Assembly: GCA_012518255.1 (NCBI GenBank)
Contig: JAAYSX010000104.1
Location: 1-37,829, forward strand
Length of the DNA stretch: 37,829 nucleotides
Reading direction: 5' to 3'
DNA from: Candidatus Epulonipiscium sp.
Lineage (GTDB): Bacteria; Bacillota; Clostridia; Lachnospirales; Cellulosilyticaceae
Positions 2,846-25,985 of the stretch are shown here, piece after piece (position 1 is the first letter of the stretch; every line of letters starts with the position of its first letter). A model generated the notes under the pieces. That model searched no databases. It was not told where the DNA came from and saw nothing but the letters and a program-made list of their open reading frames with translations. Made by a program: the position numbers and the translations under genes.

Positions 2846-3469
2846 TTAACCTTCTGTTAATTCTTTCATAATTACACCAATAGCCATTGCTCCTGCATCA
2901 GGATGGTTTAAGCTACGGTCTCCAAGGTAAGAAGCTCTACCTTTTGCTGCAACAATTGTTTTTGTATACTCTGCACCTTCTTGAGCTGCCTTTGTTGCAT
3001 CTGCAAAAGCTTCTTTAACGTCCTTGCCTTCTTCTCCAGCTTTTTGAAGTGCTTCTGTTGCTGGAATAAGTGCATCTAATAATGTTTTATCTCCTTGCTT
3101 AGCTCCGCCTCGTTTTTGGATACCTGCTACACCTGCATCAAACATTTCTGCAATATCTGATACTTCTAGGTTTTCTTTGCCCTTAACACTCCTACTTGCA
3201 GCCATAAATGCTGATCCCCAAATTGGACCTGAAGCTCCACCGCAATGCTCCATGATAATCATAGCGCATCCTCTTATAAATGAAGAGATACTATCTGTAT
3301 CAATATCATCTATTTCTTTTAATACTTCTCTAAACCCTTTTGCAATTGATGCACCAAAGTCCCCATCTCCTGCTACTGAATCTAAGTCACAGAAATAAAC
3401 TTCATTTTCTATTATAATTTCGCTTAATCTTCTAACTGTTTCTTTTACTTCTAAAACTCCTACTGCCAT
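2846..3469 (-). CDS. dhaL: Dihydroxyacetone kinase subunit DhaL
   Basis: The ADP/ATP-binding subunit of dihydroxyacetone kinase. It works with DhaK to phosphorylate dihydroxyacetone to DHAP in the cytosol. The protein has 207 residues, normal for DhaL. The signature 'DLDSVAGDGDFGASIAKGF' (about 29-47) carries the Asp residues that bind two Mg2+ ions, and 'GGASGPIWGSAFMAAS' and 'GAKQGDKTLLDALIPA' are the other family blocks. I took the ATG at 3469 because AAGGTGG lies just before it; the upstream ATG at 3520 would overlap dhaK and has no good site. It is third in gldA-dhaK-dhaL. In PTS-type systems DhaL is re-phosphorylated by DhaM, which is not encoded nearby. Confidence 0.94.
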   Translation of the reverse strand: MAVGVLEVKETVRRLSEIIIENEVYFCDLDSVAGDGDFGASIAKGFREVLKEIDDIDTDSISSFIRGCAMIIMEHCGGASGPIWGSAFMAASRSVKGKENLEVSDIAEMFDAGVAGIQKRGGAKQGDKTLLDALIPATEALQKAGEEGKDVKEAFADATKAAQEGAEYTKTIVAAKGRASYLGDRSLNHPDAGAMAIGVIMKELTEG

Positions 3470-3485
3470 ATTGCTTCCACCTTCC

Positions 3486-4475
3486 TTATTGTTTAAAACC
3501 TGGCGTATTTGCAGATGCATCTAAGTATTTCTTAAGTTCATCATCTAACTCAAGCACTGTTATAGACGCTCCTGCCATATCTAATGCAGTCATATAATTT
3601 CCTACATAAGTTTTATAAACATCAATATCTCTTTCATTTAGTTGCTTTGTTATACTATTGTTTAGTAGGTATAGTTCCATTAATGGTGTTGCACCTAAGC
3701 CATTAACAATAATTGCACAATCTTTATCTGCCCCTAAGTCTAATTCTGCAAGAACTTTATCTAGCATTTGTTTTGCTAATTCATCTGAATTTGTTATTTT
3801 TTGACGCTCGATACCAGGTTCCCCGTGTATTCCAACACCGAATTCAATTTCATCATCTTCCAGTGTAAATGTAGGTGTTCCTTTTGATGGTACTGTACAG
3901 GAATCTAAAGCAAATCCTATACTTTTTGTGTTATCAATAGTTTTTTGAGCAATACGTTTAACTTCAGCAAGATCTGCGCCAGCTTCTGCTGCTGCACCCG
4001 CAATTTTGTGCACGAATACTGTTCCTGCTACGCCTCTTCTACCTACTGTAAATAAACTATCTTCAACAGCCACATCATCGTTTACATAAACACATTCAAC
4101 GTTTATATCGCTGTCTTCTGCCATTTCAGCAGCTGCATCAAAGTTCATGCAATCTCCCGAATAGTTTTTGATAATTAAAAGTATTCCCTTATCTGTTGCA
4201 ACTTCTTCTAGTGCATTGTATACCTGTGGTGTAGATGGTGATGCAAATACATCCCCGCATACTGCTGCAGTAAGCATTCCTTCACCTACAAAGCCTGCAT
4301 GAGCTGGTTCATGTCCACTTCCTCCACCTGATACAAGTGAAACTTTATTTTGATCTATATCTTTTCTTTTTACTATCTGATAACGTGGAATTAGTTCAAG
4401 TTCAGGATGAGCTTTCACAATTCCTTCACACATTTCAAGAACTATTGTTTCTAAATTGTTAATAATTTTCTTCAT
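3486..4475 (-). CDS. dhaK: Dihydroxyacetone kinase subunit DhaK
   Basis: The substrate-binding subunit of dihydroxyacetone kinase, 329 residues, full length. The substrate carbonyl is bound covalently by a histidine, here His217 in 'GIHGEPGIE'. The catalytic 'GGGSGHEPAHAG' (50-61, with His55) and 'NYSGDCMNFD' (Asp108) are present. It acts on dihydroxyacetone made by the glycerol dehydrogenase encoded just upstream: the ATG overlaps the gldA stop by one base (TAATG), so the two are translationally coupled. Its length and separate DhaL place it with the two- or three-subunit PTS-like family rather than the single-chain ATP-dependent kinases. Confidence 0.95.
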   Translation of the reverse strand: MKKIINNLETIVLEMCEGIVKAHPELELIPRYQIVKRKDIDQNKVSLVSGGGSGHEPAHAGFVGEGMLTAAVCGDVFASPSTPQVYNALEEVATDKGILLIIKNYSGDCMNFDAAAEMAEDSDINVECVYVNDDVAVEDSLFTVGRRGVAGTVFVHKIAGAAAEAGADLAEVKRIAQKTIDNTKSIGFALDSCTVPSKGTPTFTLEDDEIEFGVGIHGEPGIERQKITNSDELAKQMLDKVLAELDLGADKDCAIIVNGLGATPLMELYLLNNSITKQLNERDIDVYKTYVGNYMTALDMAGASITVLELDDELKKYLDASANTPGFKQ

Positions 4476-5557
4476 TATAGAGCTCCTCCAATCTTATCTG
4501 CCGCACGAATAGCTGCACATAAATCTTCTGGTGTTACTTCAAATGGCATATTCTTCATGTTATTATCTGGGTCACATGCTTCTACTGCCACTTGCATTAA
4601 TCTTTCATCGCTTAGATCTTCAACACCTAAGTCTTTTAAGCATGTTGGTAAGTTAAATTCTTTACAGAATCCTATAACTTCCATAAGTTCTTCTTGTGGA
4701 GCATTTTCTAGAACTAATTGTACTATAGTACCAAATGCTACTTTTTCACCATGGAAAACGCTATGTGTTTCTTCAAGTACTGTAAGTCCGTCATGAATTG
4801 CGTGAGCTCCTGCTAATCCACTACTTTCAAATCCAAGCCCACTTAATAGGATTGCTGCTTCTATTACGTTTTCTAAGCTCTTTGTAACAACATTTGCTTC
4901 ACATGCCGCTACAGCTTTTTTACCGTCTTCTAAGAGTGTATCATAGCAAGTTTTCGCCAAAGCAAGTGCCGCTTTTGTACTTTTACCTGCTGACATATTA
5001 TTTGCATCTGATCTTTCACATGCTCTAGCTTCAAACCATGTAGCTAATGCATCTCCCATTCCTGATATTAGGAAACGAGTTGGTGCTTTTGCAATAACAT
5101 CTGAATCTACTAGAACTAAGTCAGGGTTATTTGTAAAGAACATGTAATCTTCAAACTCTCCAGTTTCTGTATAGATTACTGATAATGCACTTGTTGGTGC
5201 GTCTGTTGATGCAATAGTAGGTACAACGATTACAGGATTATTTGTCTTGTAAGCTACTGCCTTTGCTGTATCAAGGGATTTTCCTCCACCTAATCCTACA
5301 ACTATATCTACTTTTTCTTCCTCTACAACTTTAACTAATCTATCAAGTTCTTTATAAGAGCATTCTCCGCCAAATCCAACGTTAACAACATCTAAATCTT
5401 TTAGTGTATCGCCTAGAGCATCTTTTTGTCTTTCATAGTCATCTGGATGGGATACAATTAGTGGTTTTTTCCCGTAGTTAGCTATGTGTTCTCCTAAGTT
5501 GCCCATTTCTCCGCGACCTAAAATAAACTTTGATGGTGATATCATAATTCTTGCCAT
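4475..5557 (-). CDS. gldA: Glycerol dehydrogenase, iron-containing-alcohol-dehydrogenase-like family
   Basis: NAD-dependent oxidation of glycerol to dihydroxyacetone in the cytosol. The protein has 360 residues from the ATG at 5557, chosen because GGGAGG lies seven bases before it. 'GLGGGKSLDTAKA' (88-100) is the NAD-binding glycine motif, 'TIASTDAPTSALSVIYT' (114-130) the family signature, and the metal ligands are Asp169 in 'GMGDALATW' plus two histidines in 'AHAIHDGL' and 'HGEKVAFG'. First gene of gldA-dhaK-dhaL, so it supplies DHA directly to the kinase. A glycerol role fits best; other small vicinal diols such as 1,2-propanediol are possible substrates in this family. Confidence 0.94.
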   Translation of the reverse strand: MARIMISPSKFILGRGEMGNLGEHIANYGKKPLIVSHPDDYERQKDALGDTLKDLDVVNVGFGGECSYKELDRLVKVVEEEKVDIVVGLGGGKSLDTAKAVAYKTNNPVIVVPTIASTDAPTSALSVIYTETGEFEDYMFFTNNPDLVLVDSDVIAKAPTRFLISGMGDALATWFEARACERSDANNMSAGKSTKAALALAKTCYDTLLEDGKKAVAACEANVVTKSLENVIEAAILLSGLGFESSGLAGAHAIHDGLTVLEETHSVFHGEKVAFGTIVQLVLENAPQEELMEVIGFCKEFNLPTCLKDLGVEDLSDERLMQVAVEACDPDNNMKNMPFEVTPEDLCAAIRAADKIGGAL

Positions 5558-5646
5558 AGTATTACCTCCCATATAATTTGATGTTTTTATAGTTATTTTG
5601 TAACAAGTTCATAAAGTTTATTCCCTTGTTATTAGTTTATGTAACT

Positions 5647-5724: not shown

Positions 5725-6738
5725 TTATATGATTTTTTTATGATTGTGTGAGTTTCTCCTAATATTTTTCCTATATTCTCTAGGAGTTATGCCCTCATAT
5801 GTCTTGAATTGTTTAGTAAAATACGAATCATCATTAAAACCAAGATCTAGTGCAATTTGCTTAATTAACTTATCCGTTGTTCTTAGCATGGTCTTTGCTT
5901 GGTTCATTTTAAGTGTTGTCCTATATGAAGAAAAGTTTTCTCCTGTTTCCTCATAAAAGACTTTACTGAAATAACTGGGGCTTATATAACACATTTTGGC
6001 AGCTTCCCTTAAACTTAAATTTTGGTTAAGGTTTTCATTCATATAATCTATTACTGGATCTAATATAGATTTATCTGACGGATTAATTACATTTTCTGAT
6101 TCGTAATCCCTTCTAATATTATAATTATTATCTATTTTTCCGGTATTAATATGCATTTCTAATTTCTCATTTAGCTTGTCATTTTCTTGCTTTAATGTAT
6201 ATTTTTTTATTGCCTCTGTTACTATATAGTTACTTATATCATTAATCATCATAACTTTTTCTTTAATAATTTCATAAGGCATTTTCGGTAATTCATTATA
6301 GTACCTTTGCAAATCTTCAAAGTCTTGCCCATCTTTTTTTGATTTAGTGCATATCCTCTCTAAGTACTCATATTCTTCGGAAGCTTCTTCATCTATTAAT
6401 ACTTGGCCCATCATAATTGCCCCAATATATTTATCTCCTATTACAATAGGCGCAGCAACATCTATAATATCCGAGTGGCATCTATACATATATATATCAT
6501 TTAGACGCGCTGCTTCAATACCACCCCTAGCATCACATTTTTGACATTTTTTGTGAAGTTTAGGCACACTTCTAATTAATTCGCAATACCTACTCCTCCC
6601 ACTATGTTCAGTAACCGGCTCTCCCTTATAATCTACGGTTACAATAGCAAGGCCTGTTACTCTTGCTAATTGGTCTTGTATTTCTTGCCATCGATCAATA
6701 TTTAGGATTGTTCTTATATTTAGGAACTCATTGTACAT
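5725..6738 (-). CDS. AraC-family regulator with N-terminal PocR sensory domain (paralogue 1)
   Basis: A 337-residue transcription factor. Residues about 10-170 form a PocR domain ('RTILNIDRWQEIQDQLARVT', with conserved cysteines in 'CQKCDARGGIEAARL' and 'YRCHSDIIDVAAPIV'). Members of this family sense small diols and related hydrocarbon compounds. Residues about 235-330 form the double helix-turn-helix of AraC ('LSLREAAKMCYISPSYFSKVF', 'IALDLGFNDDSYFTKQFK'). It lies just upstream of gldA-dhaK-dhaL on the same strand, so it is probably their glycerol- or DHA-responsive activator. The start has GGGAGG upstream. It is a clear paralogue of the protein at 12073-13071: both open with 'ILDxDxWQEVQD'-type sequence. 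Confidence 0.9.
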   Translation of the reverse strand: MYNEFLNIRTILNIDRWQEIQDQLARVTGLAIVTVDYKGEPVTEHSGRSRYCELIRSVPKLHKKCQKCDARGGIEAARLNDIYMYRCHSDIIDVAAPIVIGDKYIGAIMMGQVLIDEEASEEYEYLERICTKSKKDGQDFEDLQRYYNELPKMPYEIIKEKVMMINDISNYIVTEAIKKYTLKQENDKLNEKLEMHINTGKIDNNYNIRRDYESENVINPSDKSILDPVIDYMNENLNQNLSLREAAKMCYISPSYFSKVFYEETGENFSSYRTTLKMNQAKTMLRTTDKLIKQIALDLGFNDDSYFTKQFKTYEGITPREYRKNIRRNSHNHKKII

Positions 6739-6761
6739 ATTAACCTCCCTTATATTTTAGT

Positions 6762-6796
6762 CAAAAACCTTCAAATGTATTTCCACACTTGAAGGT
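6762..6796 (-). terminator. Terminator-like hairpin in the leader of the PocR/AraC gene
   Basis: On the minus strand ACCTTCAA (6789-6796) pairs with TTGAAGGT (6767-6774) across a 14-nt loop and is followed by TTTTTGA. It lies about 25 bases before the regulator's ATG. It may be a backup terminator for the operon ending at 6910, or an attenuator in the regulator's own leader. Confidence 0.5.
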
Positions 6797-6870
6797 CCTC
6801 CTGATGTTTTTATTTATTTAACCTTATGTCTATATAATGTAATTTAATTATGTATATTTTAATCTTTTAA

Positions 6871-6909
6871 AGCCTAAAAGCCCTACATAAAAATGTAGGA
6901 CTTTTAGTT
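6871..6909 (-). terminator. Hairpin ending the kinase-BCCT-MFS-isomerase operon
   Basis: A stem of about 15 bp with one G-U pair (CTAAAAGTCCTACAT against ATGTAGGGCTTTTAG, T-rich tip) directly after the stop codon at 6910. The T-run after the stem is weak on the minus strand, so termination may be partial. Confidence 0.6.
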
Positions 6910-7932
6910 TTATTTGTTTTTATATTCCATTACTTTTTTGTAGAAGAGTTCTGCTTGTTTTCTACATACAATAAGTTGATTTAATTCATCATCTAAATCT
7001 CCTGCTTTTGCACTTAAAACAACCTCGAAATCTGCTGGTAATTGCATAGGGGCCTTTGCAACATATTTTGCAATTAAATCCCAGTCTAGTATTCCTTTAT
7101 CAAGGCTACCATCTACATTAGGAATCCAGTGAGCATCATGCTTGAGAACTGCTAGATCTGCTGCATCTCCATCTTCTTGGAATAATAATTCATCTGATAT
7201 TGATTCATTATCTTGAAGGTGTGTTGCATACATTCTTTCATGATACTTTTTGAGGAAGTGATAATGATCTTCGCGGCACATTAAAGCTCCATGCCCTGAG
7301 TCATAGCCAAATCCTAGGAAATCATCATCATATCTATCGAATAACAGATCAAACTGCTCATCCTGATATTCTTGAGGAGTACAAATCATGTTTTCAAGTG
7401 CAATTCTAACACCTGCCGCCTTTGCATACTCTTCAATCTCATCAAAGGATTTCATAACCTGCCTATAGTAGGCTGTTTTTTCTTCTGGTTTCTCTTCAAA
7501 TAGCACATATGGTAACTGCATATGGAGTACCATTACAGATGCACCTATATGGGTACATAAATCTATTCTATTTTTCAGAAGATCCACACCAGCTAAACGT
7601 AAATATTCATTTTTGGAAGTGTAGTCTTTTCTAATATCTTCTAGGCGATAACGATTGCGGAATATTGGTTTGCCATCAATAGTTGTAAATCTCTTACCAC
7701 CTTCTGTTGCATGGATACTATGAGCATGAATATTATAGTGGCGTAAAACGTCCCTAGCCTGGAACATTTCACTTCTACTATACATGTATTCACCTTCCCA
7801 GTTTTGCATCCACTGGGTGTGAGTAAAACCTGCTTTTGCTAAAAAACTAATTTGCCTTTCTATTTCATTCCAGTTGTGTAAGTCATTACTATAATCTGTT
7901 TCACAGGAACTTAATAATTTCATATCAGACAT
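6910..7932 (-). CDS. Sugar phosphate isomerase/epimerase-like TIM-barrel protein
   Basis: A 340-residue member of the xylose-isomerase-like TIM-barrel superfamily (AP endonuclease 2 fold), whose members isomerise, epimerise or eliminate on sugars and polyols with a divalent metal. The usual metal ligands can be picked out: Glu in 'RIALENM', Asp and His in 'GYDSGHG', His in 'YATHLQDN', and a late Glu in 'FEVVLSA'. AAGGAGG lies five bases before the start at 7932. It is the last gene of a four-gene operon (kinase, BCCT, MFS, this). The substrate cannot be told from sequence; the context suggests a step on a polyol or sugar linked to the imported compound. Confidence 0.8.
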   Translation of the reverse strand: MSDMKLLSSCETDYSNDLHNWNEIERQISFLAKAGFTHTQWMQNWEGEYMYSRSEMFQARDVLRHYNIHAHSIHATEGGKRFTTIDGKPIFRNRYRLEDIRKDYTSKNEYLRLAGVDLLKNRIDLCTHIGASVMVLHMQLPYVLFEEKPEEKTAYYRQVMKSFDEIEEYAKAAGVRIALENMICTPQEYQDEQFDLLFDRYDDDFLGFGYDSGHGALMCREDHYHFLKKYHERMYATHLQDNESISDELLFQEDGDAADLAVLKHDAHWIPNVDGSLDKGILDWDLIAKYVAKAPMQLPADFEVVLSAKAGDLDDELNQLIVCRKQAELFYKKVMEYKNK

Positions 7933-7964
7933 TTCTACCTCCTTATAAAAGTTTTATTACCTTT

Positions 7965-9258
7965 TTATGCCATATTTGCTTCTTCTATAGCTTTGTTATT
8001 TAGTTTAACTAAAACAAATGCTGAAATAAATCCTATTACTGAAAGGATTGCCATTGCAATAAAGCAATTAATATATCCTTGTAATGGTGTTGCTGTCCCT
8101 ACATACTTATCTACCATATTCCCAGATACTACGTATAAGAACATTTCTGGGGCATATGTAACTAGGGAAATGATTCCTGATGCTGTACCTGCAAGGTGTT
8201 TTGGAACTAAAACTTCATCAATTGTAGCAAAGTATAGTGCCTTGATACTATATAGACACAGACCGTATAATACGAAGTTAGCTACGATAATAGGTACTGC
8301 TCCTGGTCCTGCTGGGATTGCAACATAAGCTGTCGCAAATACTGCCATTCCAATAAATGCATACCCAATAAATTTAATCCTACTTCCAATTTTGTCTGAA
8401 ATGATACCTGCAACAATAGCACCTACCATCATCATAAAGTATGTTCTAATAACACTTAGATTTGCTACTACAGTAGCACTAAGTCCGAATGCTTCTGATA
8501 AATAAGCTGTGATATATCCGTGGAAAATAAGAGCTGAGTAGTTACAAATTCCTAGAACTCCAGCAAGCCATACCCTTGGCATTTTTGCAACTGCTACAAC
8601 GTCTTCCATATTAAATGGATTTTTCTTTTTCTCCCCATCTGTAACTATTTGACTTGGATCATCTTTTTCCATAAATATTGCAATTAATACAGCAATAACT
8701 AATAGTAAGATACTATAATATAAGATAGCATTTTTCATTCCACCAATTCCATCTGCTGCTAATCCAAATACAAAAACTGATCCAAAAGCTGCAATGGTTC
8801 CTATAAATCCACGTCCACCTTCTAATGCACCAAACAGTCTACCTTGCTCTTCAGGACCACCAAGACGGTTAATGGATTTAACCATAGCTGCCCAGAATGT
8901 AAATACTGTAGTTATAGCAAAGATTCCATGAATTACTACCAGCCATATAAAACTTGGCATTGTCCAGAACCAAAAACCTGCTAAAGCTGTACCAACACAT
9001 GATACAATAATTAGGCTTTTAGAACTAAACTTATCTGCTAGTACCCCACCTGGGAAGTAACATATAAAGTTAACTATACCGTAAGCAGACATGATAATAC
9101 CTAATTGTGTCATGGAAGCCCCTGTTGCTTGTTGTAAAGGTTCCATATAAGTTTCACGTAAGTATGGAAGCTTTGTAATTAATCCCCCCTGCAGTAGCTA
9201 CCAAAATAAGAGTCATCCACTTTGTAAAATTATCACTTTTTTGTTTGTTGTTCGCCAT
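7965..9258 (-). pseudogene. MFS permease (organophosphate/sugar-phosphate type), frameshifted near the N-terminus
   Basis: A 12-helix major facilitator permease. The long open frame starts at 9146 and lacks the first transmembrane helix. The missing N-terminus is encoded just upstream in another frame: ATG at 9258 behind GGAGGATGAAAAA, giving MANNKQKSDNFTKWMTLIL and then 'VATAGG'. The frames join if one G is removed from a run of six (9184-9189), after which the sequence reads 'LITKLPYLRETYMEP' straight into the long frame. From 9258 to 9146 is 112 bases, one more than a multiple of three, as expected for a +1 insertion. The remainder is intact ('GIVNFICYFPGGVLADKFSSKS', 'GTASGIISLVTYAPEM') and resembles GlpT/UhpC-type carriers. 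It is a recent mutation, a phase-variable tract, or a base-calling error. Confidence 0.85.
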
Positions 9259-9294
9259 TTTTTCATCCTCCATTTTCTTGTTTCTTACAATGGT

Positions 9295-10857
9295 TTAATA
9301 TTCCTTCTCTTTAATATATATATTCTCAATCTTCTTGCTATCAGCTTCTTTAATATGTTGCGAGGCCTCCTTAAAGAAACTAATTACAATCAGAATGACA
9401 ATCACGCCTATAGGAAGTGCTGCAATAATAGCTACCGATTGAAGACTATGCATAGAGCTTTCTGCACTAATTAGTCCTATTGGTAATATAATAAATAGCA
9501 CTGCCCAAAATCCTCTTACCTTCTTATCTGGTTCCTTACCTTCCCCTAAATTCTTATAGGAATATATAGAAATAACCATGGTTAAGGTATCAAAGGTAGT
9601 AACATAAAATATAATCATTGTTGCTACTAATAACAAGATTGCACCCTTTGCCAGTGGCAAGGTATTAAATGCATCTAATATTATATGTGGAACTGTAGTT
9701 CCCTGTCCAAGTTGCCCAACTATATCTATGCTTCCACTTACCTGCTTTGAAACCCCAAATCCACCAAATACAATAAAGCTTGTAAATGTGCCAGCAAGTC
9801 CAGATAGATACCCCCCAACTATTACATTTCTTACTGTCCTTCCCTTACTTATAACACCTATAAAGAAGGGCGTTGCTGTACACCATACTAGCCAGTATGC
9901 CCAATAAAATATGGTCCAGTCCTGGGTAAAGCTTGTGCTTCTTGAGGGATCCATATTAGTTGCCAATGGCAAGAAATTATGCACCATATTCCCTAATGCT
10001 GTAATCCCATTTTCTACAATATAAACTGTATCTCCTGATAAAAACAAAACCCAAAATACTAAGAATAAAAACATATAAACACATGCTTTAGCGGCAAAGG
10101 CAATTCCTTTAAATCCTACTAAAACTGCCCATGTATAAATAATTGCAATAACTATTAAAATTATAATATTTATTGTTACAGATGGTTCTAGTGAAAATAC
10201 ATCACATATACCTTCTGTTAGGAATGGTGTTGCTACTGAAAAAGTTGTAGCAGTTCCTGCTAATAAAGCAAATATAGCAATTAAGTCCACTCCTTTACCT
10301 AACTTTCCATCTACCTTATTACCAAATAAAGGTCTTAAGCTTTCTGAAAACTTTTGCTTGCTTCTTCCTGATACATGTATCATAAATCCAAAAGCTATGG
10401 CTAAGATTAAGTAAAACCCCCATGGGATAGGTCCCCAATGAAAAAGTGCATATGTAGGACCCCACAATTCTAATTCCCCTATGCTGTTAAAGACTCCTCC
10501 TTCAGCATACATAAGCCACTCACTACATGAGTAATATAAAATATCTGCAGCCATTGTTGAGGTAAATATCATGGCCCCCCATTGAAAATTACTATATTCA
10601 GGTTTATCTGTATTACCTAACCTAATATCACCATACTTAGAAAAGGCTACAATAAGGGTAGTAAGAAATACACCCAACCCTAATAACATATAAAACCATC
10701 CTAGTTTTTCACCTAATATATTTCTTATATAATCAGTTATAACTACAGATTCCTTGGGAAATAAGAAGAATAATACACCAAGTGTAGTAACAGCCACAAA
10801 AGGTAAGATCAGAAGAATAACATCTATATTCTTCATCTTTTGATTATCTTTCTTCAT
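9295..10857 (-). CDS. BCCT-family transporter (betaine/choline/carnitine type)
   Basis: A 520-residue, 12-helix secondary transporter for quaternary ammonium compounds. The family's HWG box is 'ALFHWGPIPWGFYLILA' (about 137-153) and the diagnostic 'TIFYWAYWLVWCTATPFF' followed by 'ISKGRTVRNVIVGG' (about 315-350) carries the substrate-binding Trp/Tyr cage region. The partner gene 11 bases upstream encodes a LicA-like choline kinase, so choline or a choline-like amine is the most economical substrate. The long charged cytosolic tails of osmosensing BetP are absent, which fits nutrient uptake better than osmoregulation. GGAG lies six bases before the ATG. Confidence 0.88.
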   Translation of the reverse strand: MKKDNQKMKNIDVILLILPFVAVTTLGVLFFLFPKESVVITDYIRNILGEKLGWFYMLLGLGVFLTTLIVAFSKYGDIRLGNTDKPEYSNFQWGAMIFTSTMAADILYYSCSEWLMYAEGGVFNSIGELELWGPTYALFHWGPIPWGFYLILAIAFGFMIHVSGRSKQKFSESLRPLFGNKVDGKLGKGVDLIAIFALLAGTATTFSVATPFLTEGICDVFSLEPSVTINIIILIVIAIIYTWAVLVGFKGIAFAAKACVYMFLFLVFWVLFLSGDTVYIVENGITALGNMVHNFLPLATNMDPSRSTSFTQDWTIFYWAYWLVWCTATPFFIGVISKGRTVRNVIVGGYLSGLAGTFTSFIVFGGFGVSKQVSGSIDIVGQLGQGTTVPHIILDAFNTLPLAKGAILLLVATMIIFYVTTFDTLTMVISIYSYKNLGEGKEPDKKVRGFWAVLFIILPIGLISAESSMHSLQSVAIIAALPIGVIVILIVISFFKEASQHIKEADSKKIENIYIKEKEY

Positions 10858-10868
10858 ATAATATACTC

Positions 10869-11759
10869 CTATCTATTTGCATATTGGCAAAATTCTTTGG
10901 CTATCTCATACTGTCTCATTTTATATTCCTCAAAATTATTCCCAGATATATTTTTAATCTCTGACCATAAAACCCAAAGAAATGCACTTGCCGCCATATA
11001 GGCATAAACCTTGCGTCTTTCCTCTTGATTACTATGTCCGTTGAAATAGATATTTATTATTCTATCGGTTTCTTCCTTATTAAGCTCTGAATAAATACAA
11101 AACATTGCTATATCTATAAGCGGATCACACATTGCTGCATATTCCCAATCAATTAAATATATATTCCCATTCTCTATAAGAAAGTTATCAGTTATTGGAT
11201 CAATATGACATAAGCAATATCTTTTATCTCCATGTTCTATAATTCCACGCAAATTCATTATTTGCTTTCTAACTACTTGGTAATCTTCTATTCTATTAAT
11301 TTCTTCTTTACATTTTGCTTCATATTCGTCTATCTTTTTATATATATTAAATTCATGATCTATCTTTAAGTCCATCTCATGAAATTGCCTGAGGTGTTTT
11401 ATGCAAGCCTCTACCTCATCCCAATCTTTTATATTACATACATGTGAGTCTTCTAAAAATTTTGTTACCTTAATCCCATTCTTACCATTTATATATATAA
11501 CTTCTTCTGTTATTTCCTTGCCTTTAAGTAGCTCATACACTTTTGCTTCTTGCTGCCTGTTCACCAAATGCTCGGTGCCTTTCCCAGGTATTCTAAGAAG
11601 GTACTTACCACTTTCTCTTTCAAACAAATACATATCGTTGGTCATTCCAGCTTCTGCTCTTTGTATATTGTGTGAACCTTCCAGGATACCTGCTATTTGT
11701 AAGGCTTCATTAATTAAATCCTTTTCTTCACTATTTAATTGTTTCTTTTTCTCCAACAT
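10869..11759 (-). CDS. LicA-like choline/ethanolamine kinase (APH fold)
   Basis: A 296-residue small-molecule kinase of the aminoglycoside phosphotransferase/choline kinase fold. The catalytic loop is 'CHIDPITDNFL' (Brenner motif H-x-D-x4-N) and the metal-binding segment is 'IYLIDWEYAAMCDPLIDIA', a very LicA-like sequence. The N-terminal 'AEAGMTNDMYLFE' is the nucleotide-binding loop. It presumably phosphorylates the amine alcohol brought in by the BCCT carrier, trapping it in the cell. The cytidylyltransferase and transferase partners (LicC, LicD) used in cell-surface phosphocholine decoration are not nearby, so the phosphorylated product may be catabolised or used elsewhere. AAAGGGGA precedes the start. 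Confidence 0.82.
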   Translation of the reverse strand: MLEKKKQLNSEEKDLINEALQIAGILEGSHNIQRAEAGMTNDMYLFERESGKYLLRIPGKGTEHLVNRQQEAKVYELLKGKEITEEVIYINGKNGIKVTKFLEDSHVCNIKDWDEVEACIKHLRQFHEMDLKIDHEFNIYKKIDEYEAKCKEEINRIEDYQVVRKQIMNLRGIIEHGDKRYCLCHIDPITDNFLIENGNIYLIDWEYAAMCDPLIDIAMFCIYSELNKEETDRIINIYFNGHSNQEERRKVYAYMAASAFLWVLWSEIKNISGNNFEEYKMRQYEIAKEFCQYANR

Positions 11760-11805
11760 AACATTCCCCTTTACAAGTTCAATTGCTTTCTCAAGCTAAT
11801 ATACA

Positions 11806-11877
11806 TCAATTATACACAATACAAATTAAATTACAATGGTATTGCTTGTTTATTTTGTATAAATTATAATTGTACAT
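11806..11877 (-). CDS. Possible 23-residue leader peptide
   Basis: A short minus-strand ORF behind a well-placed GGAGGTCATAA site and a good upstream promoter, ending about 45 bases before the kinase start. The peptide begins MYNYNLYKINKQYH and is rich in Tyr and Asn, which is also what random AT-rich DNA would encode. It could be a leader peptide of the kinase-BCCT operon, or chance. No family is recognisable. Confidence 0.3.
   Translation of the reverse strand: MYNYNLYKINKQYHCNLICIVYN
11809..11836 (-). promoter_or_regulatory. Proximal promoter of the kinase-BCCT operon
   Basis: TTGTAA (11831-11836), 16-nt spacer, TATAAT (11809-11814) on the minus strand, giving a leader of about 45 nt before the kinase ATG. 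Confidence 0.6.
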
Positions 11878-11919
11878 TTATGACCTCCATATCTTTAATG
11901 GTAAAAATATTACTTTTGT

Positions 11920-11948
11920 AGTATATTTAATACATTTTTTAGGCACAA
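11920..11948 (-). promoter_or_regulatory. Distal promoter of the kinase-BCCT operon
   Basis: TTGTGC (11943-11948), 17-nt spacer, TATACT (11920-11925) on the minus strand. The ACAATGTT direct repeats and the TGTTAT/ATAACA palindrome overlap and flank its -35 box, a normal position for an AraC-type activator site. Confidence 0.5.
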
Positions 11949-12003
11949 TGTTATATTAATAACAATGTTTTCTTATTTTTTGTTGATATATCATACTTTT
12001 ACA

Positions 12004-12032
12004 TTGATTTCTCTGTCATGACATGGTAAAAT
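12004..12032 (+). promoter_or_regulatory. Promoter and palindrome of the second PocR/AraC gene
   Basis: TTGATT (12004-12009), 17-nt spacer, TAAAAT (12027-12032). The spacer contains the perfect 10-bp palindrome TGTCATGACA, and TGACAT recurs just after the -10. This arrangement would suit autoregulation. The gene follows with AAGGAGG at 12059-12065. Confidence 0.6.
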
Positions 12033-12072
12033 AATGACATCATATAGGACTTATCCTTAAGGAGGAATTGTT

Positions 12073-13071
12073 ATGTCATTTTTTAATTTAGATAAAATAC
12101 TAGACCTAGATAAGTGGCAAGAGGTACAAGACTCCCTGGCAGATGTTACTGGACTAGCCATAATTACTATAGATTATAAAGGTAAGCCAATTACTAAACA
12201 TAGTAATTGCACCACTTTCTGCGAAAAAATCCGCAGTAATCCAGATCTAGCCAAAATGTGCCAGAGATGCGATTCCAGGGCAGGTCTTGAAGCTGTAAGG
12301 TATAATAAACCTTATATTTATCTTTGCCACTATAATGTTGTTGATATTGCCATACCTATTACTAATAATGATAAATACATAGGCGCTATCATGGCTGGCC
12401 AGGTAAGGCTATCTCTTGCCAAAACTATTCCTGACCTTGAACAAATTTTTTATTCTCCTACTAGCCTTAAGGCTCTGCAAGAATCAAAGGAACTAAAACA
12501 TTTATACAAAAACATACCTGCCTTAGATTATGATGCCATACTTAAAACATCAGATATGCTTTTTAAGCTATGCAACTATATAGTTGATGAATCCACAAGC
12601 AAAAATGCCCTCATTAAACAATATCAGGCTAATATACCACTTGAAAAAGTTTCTACAGTTAACACGGCACCTTCACTAGAGGAATTGCCACCTTCTTTAC
12701 ATACCTCAAATGCGCCATTTGATCCACCAAAAAATAATAAACTTTTACCTGCACTTGAATATATCTTTAATAACCCTCACTTAATGGTTTCCCTTGAAAA
12801 AGCTGCCCAGCTATGCCATATAAGTCCTGGTTACTTTAGTAGGTCCTTTTCCAAGGAATTTAATACTAATTACACGGCTTATACTAATAAACTTAAAATT
12901 AAATGGGCAAAAGAGCTACTTACTAATACTGATTTACCTGTAACTCAAATTAGTGATGAATTAGGATTTAACGATCCTGGATACTTTATTAAAATATTTA
13001 AAAAGCACGAATACTTAACCCCCGGTCTATATCGCAAATATATCTCAACACCTGATAGCACTTCTATTTAA
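12073..13071 (+). CDS. AraC-family regulator with PocR sensory domain (paralogue 2)
   Basis: A 332-residue transcription factor with the same layout as the one at 5725-6738: PocR domain at about 8-170 ('DKILDLDKWQEVQDSLADVT', 'CQRCDSRAGLEAVRY', 'YLCHYNVVDIAIPI') and an AraC double helix-turn-helix at about 232-328 ('VSLEKAAQLCHISPGYFSRSF', 'ISDELGFNDPGYFIKIFK'). The linker between the domains is Pro-rich and lower in complexity. It is transcribed divergently from the kinase-BCCT-MFS-isomerase operon and is most likely its activator. PocR domains are known for binding propanediol-like and glycerol-like ligands, so the true inducer may be a metabolite with a small diol or amino-alcohol character. 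Confidence 0.9.
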   Translation: MSFFNLDKILDLDKWQEVQDSLADVTGLAIITIDYKGKPITKHSNCTTFCEKIRSNPDLAKMCQRCDSRAGLEAVRYNKPYIYLCHYNVVDIAIPITNNDKYIGAIMAGQVRLSLAKTIPDLEQIFYSPTSLKALQESKELKHLYKNIPALDYDAILKTSDMLFKLCNYIVDESTSKNALIKQYQANIPLEKVSTVNTAPSLEELPPSLHTSNAPFDPPKNNKLLPALEYIFNNPHLMVSLEKAAQLCHISPGYFSRSFSKEFNTNYTAYTNKLKIKWAKELLTNTDLPVTQISDELGFNDPGYFIKIFKKHEYLTPGLYRKYISTPDSTSI

Positions 13072-13141: not shown

Positions 13142-14167
13142 CTAAAAACTTATTGTTTTTCCTTCCTTACCCGATTCATATATTGCACATATCATTTCCT
13201 GAGTCTTAAGTGCCTCTACTCCATTAATTTCAGGCTCTATTCCCTGATCTAAAGCATCATAAAACAGCCTAAGTTGCTTGATATGGCTAACTCCCCAGTA
13301 CTGCTTTACATCCCCATATTCAAATATTTCATTAGGATTTTCATCAGCAATCAAGGTTCTACCATCATCAAATTCAATAATCCCCTTATCTGCTATCATT
13401 TTTATTATGCCTTTTTCGCAGTAAATTTCAAGTTCTACTGGCGCATCATAACCATAATAGTTAATTGCATGAAAAGCTGTAGAAACTCCATTTGTATAGT
13501 GTATAATTCCTTCTGCTGAATCTTCTACCTGGATAACTGCATGACCCCTATTAGCAATATGGGCATCTATATAATCTATCTCTTCATCTATGAACCACCT
13601 CATTAGGTCCATTGTGTGGATGGCCTGGTCAATAATTACGCCTCCGCCTTCCTTTTCCCATGTACCCTTCCAATCACTTTTACCGTAGTACTCATCTGAT
13701 CGATTCCATGTAACTGATAACTTGCCAGTTATAACCTTCCCTAGCTCACCACTTTCCAGGGTATTTTTGATTAGCTGAGATCCTGGATTATACCTGTTTT
13801 GAAAAATAACCCCCAGGGTTTTTTCATTATCTTCTGCTGCTGCTACCATAGCCTTGGCATCATCTAAGTGAATAGACATAGGTTTCTCTGTCATAACATG
13901 TACCTTATTATTAAGGGCATATATAGCTACCTCTGCATGTAAATAATGGGGCAGGCAAATATGCAAAACATCTAAATTTTCCTTATCTATCATTTCCTTG
14001 TAATCCAAATAATAATTACAATTGAATTCCTCGGCGGAGCCCTTGGCCCTATCTTCCTTATTATCACAAACAGCTACTAGCTCACATCTATCATCATGTA
14101 TAACAGGTAGGGCATGCATAGGAAATATATTTCCACATCCAACAATTCCCACACGATACTTTTTCAT
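13142..14167 (-). CDS. Gfo/Idh/MocA family oxidoreductase (distal copy)
   Basis: A 341-residue NAD(P)-dependent oxidoreductase. The Rossmann motif is 'VGIVGCGNIFPMHALP' (6-21), the family signature is 'HVMTEKPMSIHLDDA' with the catalytic-region Lys, and 'WEKEGGGVIIDQAIHTMDLMRW' carries the second conserved block with the active-site Asp/His pair (D-x3-H). It is the last gene of a six-gene carbohydrate operon. Members oxidise or reduce a sugar hydroxyl or keto group. With a second family member and a TIM-barrel protein in the same operon, it may run in the reducing direction on a keto-sugar intermediate. AAGGATGA precedes the start. Confidence 0.85.
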   Translation of the reverse strand: MKKYRVGIVGCGNIFPMHALPVIHDDRCELVAVCDNKEDRAKGSAEEFNCNYYLDYKEMIDKENLDVLHICLPHYLHAEVAIYALNNKVHVMTEKPMSIHLDDAKAMVAAAEDNEKTLGVIFQNRYNPGSQLIKNTLESGELGKVITGKLSVTWNRSDEYYGKSDWKGTWEKEGGGVIIDQAIHTMDLMRWFIDEEIDYIDAHIANRGHAVIQVEDSAEGIIHYTNGVSTAFHAINYYGYDAPVELEIYCEKGIIKMIADKGIIEFDDGRTLIADENPNEIFEYGDVKQYWGVSHIKQLRLFYDALDQGIEPEINGVEALKTQEMICAIYESGKEGKTISF

Positions 14168-14191
14168 ACAATCATCCTTTCTAAACCCAGC

Positions 14192-15157
14192 TTATGCCCA
14201 CCACATTTCTCCTTGAGTATCAAAGATAATGGCATCTTTAAGGGTATCTATTGCTTTTTCCAAACCTTCTTCTCTTGTCATTAAACTATCCTCATGCTCT
14301 ATACTTAAGGCTCCGTCATATCCACACACCCTAAGCTCGCTAACGATATCTCTCCACACACTAACATCATGTCCATATCCCACAGAACGGAAAATCCATG
14401 AACGACCTGCCTCATCACTATAATGCTTTGTATCCAACACTCCATTTATAGCCGTATTGTATTTATCAATCTTAGTATCCTTTGCATGGAAATGATAAAT
14501 TGCACCCTTTAAGGAACGAATTGCTGCAACAGGATCAATACCTTGCCACCACAGGTGAGATGGGTCAAAGTTTGCACCCATTACATCTCCTACTGCATTT
14601 CTTAATTTAAGCATAGTATATGGGTTATATACACTAAATCCTGGGTGCATCTCTATGGCTATTTTATTAACTCCATGAGCTTTAGCAAACTTAGCAGCTT
14701 CCTTCCAGTAAGGAATTAATACATCATTCCACTGATATTCTAGCATTTCTGAATAGATATCTGGCCATGAACATGTAATCCAGTTTGGCTCTTTTGCCCC
14801 TTCATATCCTCCTGGACATCCTGAGAAAGTAACTACTGTATCTAAGCCTAGTTTTTCTGCTAGTAATACTGCATTTTCAAAATCCTTATGATCCTTGGCT
14901 GCTATTTCAGGATTTGGATGAACAGGGTTTCCATGAACACTTAAGGCACTGATTTCTATATTATATTTTTCAAATAGAGCTTTAAATTCTTCAAATTTCT
15001 TTTCATCATTAAGTAATACCTCTGGGTCACAGTGATCCTTACCTGGGTTACCCCCAGCACCTATTTCTGCTGTTTGTACACCTAGTGATGATAAATATTT
15101 CAATGTTTCCTCTAGAGATTGATTCCCGAACAATACCGCAAATACTCCTAATTTCAT
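14192..15157 (-). CDS. Sugar phosphate isomerase/epimerase-like TIM-barrel protein of the carbohydrate operon
   Basis: A 321-residue xylose-isomerase-like TIM barrel. Metal ligands are visible as Glu in 'KIAIEMHPG', Asp and His in 'NFDPSHLWW', His in 'YHFHAKD' and Glu in 'LSIEHED'. This form, with 'HAKD' and 'DPSHLWWQGID', is typical of proteins encoded beside Gfo/Idh/MocA dehydrogenases, where they act as isomerases, epimerases or keto-sugar beta-eliminases (inositol, levoglucosan and 3-keto-glycoside pathways). AGGAGG precedes the start. It lies between the two dehydrogenase genes, which suggests it takes the product of one as substrate. Confidence 0.85.
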   Translation of the reverse strand: MKLGVFAVLFGNQSLEETLKYLSSLGVQTAEIGAGGNPGKDHCDPEVLLNDEKKFEEFKALFEKYNIEISALSVHGNPVHPNPEIAAKDHKDFENAVLLAEKLGLDTVVTFSGCPGGYEGAKEPNWITCSWPDIYSEMLEYQWNDVLIPYWKEAAKFAKAHGVNKIAIEMHPGFSVYNPYTMLKLRNAVGDVMGANFDPSHLWWQGIDPVAAIRSLKGAIYHFHAKDTKIDKYNTAINGVLDTKHYSDEAGRSWIFRSVGYGHDVSVWRDIVSELRVCGYDGALSIEHEDSLMTREEGLEKAIDTLKDAIIFDTQGEMWWA

Positions 15158-15188
15158 ATCTATTCCTCCTATTTTTATATTATATGTT

Positions 15189-16295
15189 TTATTCCTCTAT
15201 TGGTTTTCCATCCTTAAAAAATACTGGTTTCTTGGTTCTAGCTGATGTATATATTGCTTCTAATATTTCAGTAACTACCAGGGCCTCTTCAGGCTTAACA
15301 AGTGGCTCTGTATCATTAATAACAGACTCCATCCATAATCTAGCCTCAAGCTCATGAGCTTCCTCTTCATCTGGATCATAAAAGTCTACACCTGATGCAT
15401 CGAATACAGGCTTTTTAGTATAAAATCTTCCTAGATCTTCTCCGTTAATCCTAAGTCCATCTTTCATATCTGCGCCTGCTATAGTTCCACAAAGAGTTGT
15501 CATTGCCTCCCCAGTCTCTAGTGTGTTAAGTGCCCAGCTAGATTCTAATATAATAGTAGCTCCATCCTCCATTGTAATAAAACCAAATGCTGAATCTTCT
15601 ACAGTATATTCATCCTGGTCCCAAGGCCCCCAAGCATTAGCCTCACTAGTTCTACCTTCCCAGGCCTTGTAAACATTTCCCATAACACTTTTTACCTTGT
15701 AATTATTCATCTCCCATAGGGTTAGGTCAAGCGCATGAGTACCAATATCAATTAATGGTCCTCCCCCTTGCTCTTCCTCATTTAAAAACACACCCCAAGT
15801 TGGTACAGCCCTTCTCCTAATCGCATGTGCCTTAGCAAAGTAAATTTCTCCTAGATCCCCACGCTCACAGGCCCCTTTTAAATAAAGTGAATCTGTCCTA
15901 AATCTATTTTGATAGCCAACTGTTAGCTTCTTGCCCGTCTTCTTGGCAACTTCTAGCATTTTTCTTGCATCTTTAGCCGTCTTAGCCATTGGCTTTTCAC
16001 ACATAACATGCTTATCACTTTCTAATGCATCAATAGTAATAGATGCATGACTTAAGTTAGGTGTACATATATGGACTACCTCTATGCTTTCATCTTTCAA
16101 AAGCTCTTTGTAGTCTGTATATATACTAGCATCCTCTACTCCAAAATCTTTGGCCGCCTTTTCCGCCCTCTCCTTTACAATATCGCAAAAGGCTACCATT
16201 TCAACATAATCTAACTTAGCAAGTCCTGGCATATGCTTTCCATTAGCTATACCACCACAGCCTATAATTCCTACTCTTACAATCCTTTTTTCCAT
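15189..16295 (-). CDS. Gfo/Idh/MocA family oxidoreductase (proximal copy)
   Basis: A 368-residue NAD(P)-dependent oxidoreductase. The nucleotide-binding motif is 'VGIIGCGGIANGKHMPGL' (about 7-24), the catalytic 'MCEKPMAKTA' follows at about 117-126, and 'GGGPLIDIGTHALDLTLWEM' is the conserved substrate-domain block. It shares the operon with, but is quite diverged from, the copy at 13142. Two dissimilar members in one operon suggest an oxidation at one step and a reduction at another, recycling NAD(H). The start has TAGGAG upstream, and the gene begins 15 bases after the permease stop. Confidence 0.87.
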   Translation of the reverse strand: MEKRIVRVGIIGCGGIANGKHMPGLAKLDYVEMVAFCDIVKERAEKAAKDFGVEDASIYTDYKELLKDESIEVVHICTPNLSHASITIDALESDKHVMCEKPMAKTAKDARKMLEVAKKTGKKLTVGYQNRFRTDSLYLKGACERGDLGEIYFAKAHAIRRRAVPTWGVFLNEEEQGGGPLIDIGTHALDLTLWEMNNYKVKSVMGNVYKAWEGRTSEANAWGPWDQDEYTVEDSAFGFITMEDGATIILESSWALNTLETGEAMTTLCGTIAGADMKDGLRINGEDLGRFYTKKPVFDASGVDFYDPDEEEAHELEARLWMESVINDTEPLVKPEEALVVTEILEAIYTSARTKKPVFFKDGKPIEE

Positions 16296-16310
16296 TTTAT
16301 CACTCCTAAA

Positions 16311-17171
16311 TTATTTTATACTTCCTTCTACCATTCCTTCTATAATCTGTTTTTGTGCAAATATAAATAAAATAATAATTGGTATCATGGCAAGAAATGC
16401 AGCTGTCAAAATCAGATCCCATTGCTTTACATAAGAACCTACAAAACTACTAACTGCTACTGGCAATGTCCTAATTTTCCCATTTAATCCTAACATCAAA
16501 GATGGTAATAGGTAATCATTCCAAATCCAAATCCCATTTAAAATAAGGATTGTCATATGAATTGGTTTTAGCAAAGGAAAAACAACTAGAAAGAAAGTTT
16601 TTTCTGGGCTACATCCATCAATCCATGCTGCTTCTTCAAGCTCATATGGAATACCTTTAATAAATCCATGTAAAATAAAAATTGATAATGAACCACCAAA
16701 GCCTAGGTATGCAAAAATAATCCCCTTATAACTACTTAACATATTAATACCAGTAAATTGTGATATTGTTCTAAATGTAGATATTAATGGCAACATTACT
16801 ACTTGAAAAGGGATAACCATGGCTGCTACAAATAGCATAAAAATTACATTAGACCATTTAGTTTTATTCCTAACTAGCACCCATGCTGCCATACTTGCAA
16901 ATAAGGCAATTAAGGCCAAACTTACCCCTGTTATAAATAAAGAGCTAAAAAAGGCTCTCCAATAGTTAAAGTTTGCATTGTTTATAACATTCTTCATGTT
17001 TATAAATAACTGGGACCACTTTTCTGGAGGTGTGATTGGGCTAATGACAATTTCTGCACTTTTCTTAGCAGAGTTAAAAATAACCAAAACAAAAGGTAAT
17101 AGAATAATGATAGATATGATAATACCTATTATTTCTAATATATAATTACTAAATCGTCTTTTTTCACCCAT
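16311..17171 (-). CDS. Carbohydrate ABC transporter permease, MalG-type
   Basis: The second inner-membrane subunit of a CUT1-type sugar importer, 286 residues and six transmembrane helices. The EAA loop that contacts the ATPase is 'YELEEAAWIDGCSPEKTFFL' (about 175-194). The N-terminal helix is followed by the usual short extracytoplasmic segment. The ATG overlaps the stop of the partner permease by one base (TAATG). No ATPase gene is present, so it likely shares an MsmX/UgpC-like ATPase encoded elsewhere, as is common in Firmicutes. Confidence 0.93.
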   Translation of the reverse strand: MGEKRRFSNYILEIIGIIISIIILLPFVLVIFNSAKKSAEIVISPITPPEKWSQLFINMKNVINNANFNYWRAFFSSLFITGVSLALIALFASMAAWVLVRNKTKWSNVIFMLFVAAMVIPFQVVMLPLISTFRTISQFTGINMLSSYKGIIFAYLGFGGSLSIFILHGFIKGIPYELEEAAWIDGCSPEKTFFLVVFPLLKPIHMTILILNGIWIWNDYLLPSLMLGLNGKIRTLPVAVSSFVGSYVKQWDLILTAAFLAMIPIIILFIFAQKQIIEGMVEGSIK

Positions 17172-18205
17172 TACATTTCAACCTCCTTCTTTTTACTAAT
17201 ATAAACTTGTGTTAATGATACTATTGCTAATAAAATAAAGAAAACCACTGCCTTTGTTTGTCCTAGAGCATATCTATTCTTTGCTATAGCAGTTTTGTAA
17301 ATATTAAGTGCCATAAATTCTGTAGACATAATCGGCTTACCGCCTACGATTCTACTAGGAGCACCATTAGTAATAGCAAGGTTTAGATCAAACTGTTTAA
17401 AGGAGTTAACAAGGGTTAAGAATATACAAACTGTAAATGTATTAGCTATCATGGGTAACTTAATTTTCATAAGTGTTGTCCACTTATTTGCCCCATCTAC
17501 TTCTGAAGCTTCTAGTATATCTCTTGGAACGCTTTGTAGGCCAGTAACATAAATCATCATAATATATCCAGCATATTGCCAAGCACTTACAATTAGTATG
17601 GCTAATAGAGCCAGGTTAGGATCTGTTAACATAGACATATAGCCTGGACCAATTTCTGTTAGTACCTTATTAAATATAAATTGCCAAACATATCCTAATA
17701 CTATCCCTCCAATTAAGTTTGGTAGGAAAAAAGCTGCCCTGTAAAAATTTCTGCCTTTTACCTTAGATGTTGCAAGTAAAGCAAGTAAAAATGCTATAAT
17801 ATTCACAAAAATCATATTCAAGATAGTAAAAATTAATGTTATAAAAAATGAATACACATAGTCTTGCGACCTAAACATTTCTATATAATTATCAAACCCT
17901 ATAAATTCCGTGTAACTAACTCCTGTCCAGTCGGTAAAAGAGTAAAATACACCTAGTGCAAATGGAATTAAGACTGTAACCAAAAAGGTAAGTACAAGTG
18001 GTAGTAAAAAAAGAAAGTTAACAATTTGGTTATGCCTTTCACTTGGTAGCATATATAAACCTAGCAAAATAAGGGCTAAACCTACAATCAAAAACCAACC
18101 TCTCATACTATGGTCACTACCCATAAAATTTAGGTAAAGTGTAACTACAGTAATAATAATTCCCAAGATAATTTCTGCAATAGAGAATACTTTTTTCTTG
18201 CTCAA
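17171..18205 (-). CDS. Carbohydrate ABC transporter permease, MalF/UgpA-type
   Basis: The first inner-membrane subunit of the importer, 344 residues. Two extra hydrophobic helices (about 10-55) precede the usual six-helix core, which begins near 'FLFLLPLVLTFLVTVLIPFALG'. The EAA loop is 'ILEASEVDGANKWTTLMKIK' (about 232-251). The start is a TTG at 18205, seven bases after GGGAGGG; an ATG in between is out of frame. It pairs with the permease at 16311 and receives sugar from the lipoprotein at 18283. Confidence 0.9.
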   Translation of the reverse strand: MSKKKVFSIAEIILGIIITVVTLYLNFMGSDHSMRGWFLIVGLALILLGLYMLPSERHNQIVNFLFLLPLVLTFLVTVLIPFALGVFYSFTDWTGVSYTEFIGFDNYIEMFRSQDYVYSFFITLIFTILNMIFVNIIAFLLALLATSKVKGRNFYRAAFFLPNLIGGIVLGYVWQFIFNKVLTEIGPGYMSMLTDPNLALLAILIVSAWQYAGYIMMIYVTGLQSVPRDILEASEVDGANKWTTLMKIKLPMIANTFTVCIFLTLVNSFKQFDLNLAITNGAPSRIVGGKPIMSTEFMALNIYKTAIAKNRYALGQTKAVVFFILLAIVSLTQVYISKKKEVEM

Positions 18206-18247
18206 GTCTCATCCCTCCCCTTCTTCTTATTCTAAATCTATGGTTAA

Positions 18248-18276
18248 ATATAGGTGGCTAAAATAGCCACCTATAT
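18248..18276 (-). other. Intercistronic hairpin between the binding protein and permease genes
   Basis: A perfect 12-bp stem (ATATAGGTGGCT / AGCCACCTATAT) with a 5-nt loop, right after the binding-protein stop. No strong T-run follows. Such hairpins stabilise or partly terminate the upstream message, so the binding protein is made in excess of the permeases. Confidence 0.75.
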
Positions 18277-18282
18277 AAAATC

Positions 18283-25883: not shown

Positions 25884-25985
25884 AAATTCTTTTTTTATTG
25901 CCATTTTTCTTGCAATAAAAGACATTTCATTATAAACTATAGGTAATATAGGATAGATAAATAAGATTTTTAATAGGTGATGCTG

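Follow-up and report, generated by a model that had tools for sequence, protein, structure and literature searches.

Why should genes for the handling of choline lie beside genes for the use of glycerol, under two regulators of one type? The locus that raises this question lies in a 37,829-nucleotide stretch of DNA from Candidatus Epulonipiscium sp. (assembly GCA_012518255.1, contig JAAYSX010000104.1), called the window in the following. On its minus strand are found, in order, a choline kinase gene, a BCCT transporter gene, an MFS transporter gene, an AP_endonuc_2 TIM-barrel gene (6910-7932, labelled TIM here), a first regulator (PocR1), gldA, dhaK and dhaL; a second regulator (PocR2) is divergent. 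The presence of an importer and a presumed hydrolase between choline genes and glycerol genes points to glycerophosphocholine (GPC), a lipid fragment common in food and in the host and a common water-soluble choline source. We propose that this gene set is a GPC salvage unit, with GPC as the presumed substrate and TIM as the presumed hydrolase, and put the probability of this reading at about 0.5. The first-pass annotation had suggested that the modules jointly use one substrate containing both an amino-alcohol part and a glycerol or dihydroxyacetone part; co-conservation of the genes supports this, and the substrate is likely intact GPC rather than the GPC breakdown products that had been offered as an example.

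The proposed process runs as follows. MFS would import GPC, and TIM, acting with metal, would hydrolyse it to glycerol and phosphocholine. In the window and in three other loci (L019, L020 and L116), glycerol would flow to dihydroxyacetone and then to dihydroxyacetone phosphate (DHAP) by GldA and DhaKL; in L021/L022 and L119 it would be taken by GlpK. All these enzymes are identified by family models and similarity. At the same time, BCCT would import free choline for phosphorylation by the LicA-like kinase, so that both routes would converge on phosphocholine, which MFS might then export in exchange for incoming GPC. PocR2 would activate the divergent promoter via three direct repeats; its signal would probably be glycerol or a small polyol related to it, and in the window's own genome gldA-dhaKL would be under a regulator of their own, PocR1. 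More tentatively, and somewhat short of an even chance, TIM would represent a new AP-endonuclease-2-type TIM-barrel family of intracellular GPC cholinephosphodiesterases (releasing glycerol and phosphocholine), which, joined by an MFS importer and a PocR regulator of its own, would form a dedicated GPC-use operon of Lachnospiraceae and, probably via horizontal transfer, of the window's genome; this operon would depend on neither GlpQ/UgpQ nor CutC. The parts are of known kinds and their combination is not described in the papers searched, among which none dealt with this gene set (subscription papers lay mostly outside the coverage); a new function for one family is plausible. The features are listed below, with gene names taken from profile matches to Pfam and NCBIfam with family cut-offs.

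12073..13071, plus strand: PocR2, 332 aa; PF10114 PocR domain followed by an AraC helix-turn-helix (HTH_18).
11809..11842, minus strand: promoter of the kinase operon with its proximal operator copy; ATACCATTGTAAT at 11830-11842 (exact match), -10 box TATAAT at 11809-11814.
10869..11759, minus strand: kinase, a stand-alone LicA-like choline kinase; Choline_kinase 80.9 bits.
9295..10857, minus strand: BCCT transporter; PF02028 391.8 bits (cut-off 27).
7965..9146, minus strand: MFS transporter; MFS_1 96.9 bits; the listed open reading frame is without its N-terminus.
6910..7932, minus strand: TIM; PF01261 (AP_endonuc_2) 63.7 bits.
6739..6909, minus strand: gap between TIM and PocR1, 171 nucleotides; two strong hairpins on folding, terminator-like match at 6882-6899.
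5725..6738, minus strand: PocR1, 337 aa; PF10114 PocR domain followed by an AraC helix-turn-helix.
4475..5572, minus strand: gldA, glycerol dehydrogenase; NF006941 529.9 bits (cut-off 336).
3486..4475, minus strand: dhaK, dihydroxyacetone kinase; TIGR02363 473.9 bits (cut-off 406.25).
2846..3520, minus strand: dhaL, dihydroxyacetone kinase; TIGR02365 193.8 bits (cut-off 138.3).

Are the choline and glycerol genes coupled beyond this genome? A BCCT scan of named genomes gave 80 loci. We define close TIM loci as those with TIM at 73% identity or above, of which seven are distinct: the window, L019 (Faecalicatena contorta), L020 (Ohessyouella blattaphilus), L021/L022 (two near-identical metagenome-assembled genomes, one count), L116, L118 and L119. 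L121 and L122 (TIM at 35-44%) are excluded from these counts, and L121 is included in the alignment A1. In L019 and L020, PocR2 is divergent from a single run of kinase, BCCT, MFS, TIM, gldA and a fused dhaKL, and in L116 from MFS, TIM, gldA and dhaKL, in all three without PocR1. L021/L022 carry kinase-MFS-TIM-BCCT and then a GlpP-like protein of 190 aa, a GlpA-type dehydrogenase, another FAD protein, a DUF1667-type protein of 118 aa and GlpK, the GlpA-type dehydrogenase and GlpK being named by NCBIfam. L119 carries MFS-TIM-kinase-BCCT with a divergent GlpP-GlpK nearby; directly upstream of its MFS (L119 11820-14124) lie a malic enzyme and an Ldh_2-family dehydrogenase. The first-pass annotation had staked its idea beforehand on co-conservation of kinase-BCCT with the PocR gene or the glycerol genes, and this is what is found, as a single run of genes in L019 and L020 and with GlpK or GlpA-type genes elsewhere; the coupling is thus upheld by gene neighbourhoods.

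Glycerol genes occur in six of the seven distinct close TIM loci (all but L118), versus 0/14 BCCT loci without TIM (L023-L036, some of them short; L026, L033 and L035 could hide neighbours for this reason). Fisher's test on this contrast gives p of about 1e-4, a value that overstates independence, as the loci are related. More telling for the coupling is that the glycerol genes are of differing kinds. The gldA genes of L019, L020 and L116 are 79-88% identical to one another and 55-57% identical to that of the window, and their dhaKL is fused but that of the window is split into dhaK and dhaL. With two gldA lineages, fused and split dhaKL, and GlpK, the partner function has apparently been recruited repeatedly. 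Judged by these identities, the gldA-dhaK-dhaL set of the window is of a different lineage from that of its relatives, and PocR1 lies between it and TIM.

Kinase and TIM occur together in six of the seven distinct close loci, and of the 12 loci whose TIM is at least 52% identical, 10 have MFS adjoining it; the constant pair is MFS-TIM, not kinase-BCCT. In L131 and L132 (genomes G452 and G451, TIM at 58-59%) no MFS lies alongside, and the same genomes hold a 73% identical MFS adjoining a LicC-LicA fusion and a BCCT (L027 and L026). TIM itself is rare: a search of whole genomes of the class found it in 1/391, the query itself, one of the family of F. contorta in 8/397 (a second search gave largely the same set), and one of a mixed set in 2/34, including 0/23 members of the window's own family in that set; a viral-contig scan for further TIM relatives found none. 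The gene set is rare and conserved. Distant MFS-TIM paralogues lie with a CUT1-type ABC system in L117 and L120, and the similarity of these ABC genes to UgpB (94-109 bits, cut-off 411) is too weak to argue from; a two-component-like pair is nearby in both, with a DUF2935 protein in L117 and a second PgtP-like MFS in L120.

What do the kinase and BCCT handle? The best PDB match of the kinase is the pneumococcal choline kinase LicA (4r77, E 3e-32), whose choline pocket is formed, according to PMC4364537, by Thr29, Asp176, Val178, Tyr197, Glu213, Trp251, Trp254 and Tyr268. When aligned to 4r77 with HMMER (taking a chain offset of 20), the kinase has T40, D187, I189, Y207, Y223, W262, W265 and Y279 at these positions, keeping 7/8 when the conservative change of Val178 to Ile is counted. 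The pocket-rim Glu213 is not kept, its place being taken by Tyr223, which is invariant in seven aligned kinases. The catalytic Asp/Asn/Asp/Glu positions are also kept (D187, N192, D204 and E206), and choline is the presumed substrate of the kinase. The nearest solved structures to BCCT are DddT, CaiT, a BetT-type transporter and BetP, with dimethylsulfoniopropionate, carnitine, choline and betaine as substrates, and BCCT is a probable choline importer.

A LicA-like choline kinase beside a choline transporter recalls the Lic-1 pathway (LicA-LicB-LicC-LicD), and kinase-BCCT could be a lic locus for surface phosphocholine decoration in which the transporter has been exchanged, with the glycerol genes unrelated. 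Indeed, a LicC-type NTP domain is usual beside kinase-BCCT where TIM is lacking, in 11 of 13 such loci among L023-L036 (L025, with no kinase match, is left out) and in all four further kinase loci L125-L128. However, this domain is found in none of the six distinct loci where TIM and kinase occur together. The window has BCCT in place of LicB, the additional MFS-TIM and glycerol genes, and no LicC at the locus, and its genome (94.96% complete) has no LicD (PF04991), which is present in 4/12 genomes searched. The only LicC-like gene of this genome (C18; L140 1-3207) follows genes that, by sequence, resemble phosphonopyruvate decarboxylase and a cytidylyltransferase-phosphoenolpyruvate mutase, and from this position probably serves phosphonate synthesis. 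We thus regard surface decoration as very unlikely here. As separate observations, the LicA-like kinases of L023-L036 and L125-L128 are fused or adjacent to the LicC-type domain and usually lie beside a BCCT instead of LicB, and the C18 genes, which are followed by a flippase-like gene, may serve an aminoethylphosphonate surface modification. CutC-type choline fermentation was rejected for the window's genome (best score 128.7 bits against 1050); CutC over the cut-off was absent from seven of eight other genomes searched and present in G715.

In which direction would GPC be cleaved? All four gene arrangements with glycerol genes contain enzymes for the use of free glycerol, GldA-DhaK or GlpK, which makes release of glycerol and phosphocholine likelier than that of glycerol-3-phosphate and choline. 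The latter is the direction of GlpQ: the operon would still serve GPC, and the kinase would trap the choline released by TIM. This is the direction of known bacterial GPC use (PMC3178575, PMC11652876), it would account for the kinase beside TIM in six of the seven distinct close loci, and the GlpA-type dehydrogenase of L021/L022 would use glycerol-3-phosphate. However, gldA-dhaKL (window, L019, L020 and L116) and GlpK (L021/L022 and L119) use glycerol rather than glycerol-3-phosphate, and L116 has no kinase to trap choline; we find GlpQ-like cleavage distinctly unlikely.

The proposed unit shares with the GlpQ-UgpQ route of E. coli and Mycoplasma the uptake and cleavage of GPC and the passage of the glycerol part to DHAP. 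In that route a GDPD-family enzyme yields glycerol-3-phosphate and choline, whereas the window has another TIM-barrel family and glycerol-consuming enzymes, in a genome without GDPD. Indeed, GDPD (PF03009) matches neither TIM nor any other protein of this genome and is absent from 5/8 other searched genomes with a TIM homologue, which supports, without proving, that TIM fills the GDPD role. Gut bacterial GPC hydrolysis is discussed in PMC11652876 in terms of GlpQ and UgpQ. If the proposal holds, some gut Lachnospiraceae would use a GDPD-independent GPC route in which choline is kept as phosphocholine and not freed for trimethylamine formation. In addition, a poorly annotated family of 'sugar isomerases', not previously linked to GPC cleavage, would gain a phosphodiesterase function.

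Can TIM be such an enzyme? Its links to named families are weak, the weak NCBIfam and PF01261 matches including IolE and ribulose-5-phosphate epimerase. The AP endonuclease 2 superfamily holds, according to PMC7733943, the phosphodiesterases endonuclease IV and CbiR beside isomerases. The metal ligands of endonuclease IV, with residue identities checked in E. coli Nfo, are His69, His109, Glu145, Asp179, His182, His216, Asp229, His231 and Glu261. In an 11-sequence family alignment TIM has eight of these nine in identical form in all three MAFFT modes, and the ninth position may be His74. Among the controls, UlaE has one, Hyi 2-3, YcjR 0-1 and the second TIM barrel of the window (TIM2) 5-6 of nine. 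TIM shares its superfamily and, as far as the family alignment shows, most metal-ligand positions with CbiR, the cobamide phosphodiesterase, and endonuclease IV, but differs in size, sequence family and neighbours, with no cobamide or DNA-repair context. The CbiR model NF041277 gives 27.1 bits for TIM against a cut-off of 105, and an orthologue of CbiR or endonuclease IV is ruled out by cut-off and context. We regard TIM as a candidate metal-dependent GPC phosphodiesterase, as suggested by its family and setting.

Several points weigh against this reading. Aligned alone, TIM has five of nine ligands, and YgbM, a control annotated as an isomerase, has 7, 0 or 5 of nine by alignment mode; considering these controls, the ligand set fits a hydrolase without being diagnostic of one, and serves as supporting evidence only. 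Structure prediction from five sequences (window and L019-L022) reached a predicted local distance difference test score (pLDDT) of 43.5, and GDPD is present in three of the eight other genomes with a TIM homologue. L116 lacks kinase and BCCT, and L118 has MFS-TIM-kinase-BCCT without glycerol genes. The start (near 9257) and the first residues of MFS are encoded in another frame, with the shift inside a G run near 9184-9189, and both GlpT arginine positions considered below are replaced in all aligned MFS-TIM-type transporters. Finally, hhalign places TIM closer to the epimerase UlaE (E 0.0018) than to endonuclease IV (E 0.048).

The last point also favours TIM as a sugar or keto-acid isomerase or epimerase that converts a C3-C4 polyol or sugar acid taken up from outside, with its product passed to GldA/DhaK or GlpK and the choline genes a separate, travelling salvage set. 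The weak family matches to IolE and the epimerase, the ligand score of YgbM, the lack of choline genes in L116 and the sugar-type CUT1 system beside the distant paralogues of L117 and L120 agree with it. It leaves unexplained, however, why kinase-BCCT joins MFS-TIM in six of the seven distinct close loci, and why an MFS 73-74% identical to that of the window adjoins a LicC-LicA fusion and a BCCT in L024, L026 and L027. An isomerase seems unlikely to us.

MFS is the candidate GPC importer, on the strength of its constant pairing with TIM. Its relatives in L019 and L116, which are intact, share 83-85% identity with it, and the frame break is either a real mutation or an assembly error. The model for GlpT/PgtP antiporters, TIGR00881, gives 46.9-53.1 bits against a cut-off of 407.75. 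GlpT has paired arginines, Arg45/Arg269, and a GlpT-type antiporter was rejected on the missing pair.

How is the unit controlled? The open reading frames, strands and domains confirm two PocR/AraC paralogues of 337 and 332 residues with the same domain order, PocR1 ahead of gldA-dhaKL and PocR2 divergent from kinase-BCCT-MFS-TIM, as first described. That the two regulators bracket the genes is right for the window; it does not stand as an ancestral layout, since gldA follows directly on TIM in L019, L020 and L116, where PocR1 is absent from the operon, and only PocR2 is part of the ancestral unit. PocR1 and PocR2 score 157.6 and 155.8 bits with PF10114 (cut-off 23.9) and are 40% identical. 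PocR2 shares 74, 61 and 72% identity with the regulators adjoining the same genes in L019, L020 and L116, and PocR1 is 56% identical to a paralogue on contig C74 of its own genome, which has four PocR-domain proteins.

The region between PocR2 and the first gene has three ACCATT-type direct repeats, two of them upstream of the proximal copy, that align in the window, L019, L020 and L116. A promoter-like pair is predicted at 11836..11809, and the -10 box of the aligned regions is TGTATAAT or TGTAAAAT. With up to two mismatches the motif occurs in the window at chance level; thus, only the cross-genome alignment counts. Neither PocR1 nor gldA has a close copy upstream. In L116 MFS itself is the first gene behind the conserved promoter, whose companions are thus PocR2 and MFS-TIM rather than the kinase. 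PocR2 is the probable activator of the divergent operon, and PocR1 is probably the regulator of gldA-dhaKL. The kinase-TIM transcript probably ends in the gap before PocR1, which would have a separate start; considering its 171 nucleotides and two strong hairpins, PocR1-gldA-dhaKL may be a separate transcript.

This control bears on a further possibility, that free choline and glycerol are co-regulated co-products of phospholipid breakdown outside the cell and that the substrate of MFS-TIM is a glycerophosphodiester other than GPC, for instance glycerophosphoinositol or glycerophosphoglycerol. Choline has a separate uptake gene (BCCT), PocR-type regulators control the use of small alcohols (PMC4207490), and L116 would fit. 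However, in the window, L019 and L020 a single promoter and operator serve both kinase-BCCT and MFS-TIM, and we consider this possibility rather improbable beside GPC salvage. A title cited in PMC1592074 and PMC4207490 has PocR domains predicted to sense simple hydrocarbon derivatives; from the setting we infer a glycerol-like ligand for PocR2. As in PocR-type propanediol, ethanolamine and glycerol loci, a PocR sensor with an AraC helix-turn-helix lies beside small-alcohol catabolic genes; unlike there, the window regulators are not PocR orthologues (178.6 and 180.2 bits with the equivalog model NF047788, cut-off 500), and no microcompartment or pdu/cob genes were found among the window genes scanned.

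The two further PocR/AraC proteins of this genome lie on C74 and C109 (L123 and L124); no glycerol link was found among 10 neighbouring proteins scanned, and the C74 regulator adjoins an OPT-family transporter. Elsewhere in the window, an IS481-like transposase open reading frame lies at 25977-26975 (82.9 bits, cut-off 224). At 13142-19623, a Gfo/Idh/MocA dehydrogenase, a TIM barrel, a second dehydrogenase, two ABC permeases and a binding protein, with a LacI regulator adjoining, form a gene set similar to the glycoside-modifying set ycjN-ycjS of E. coli.

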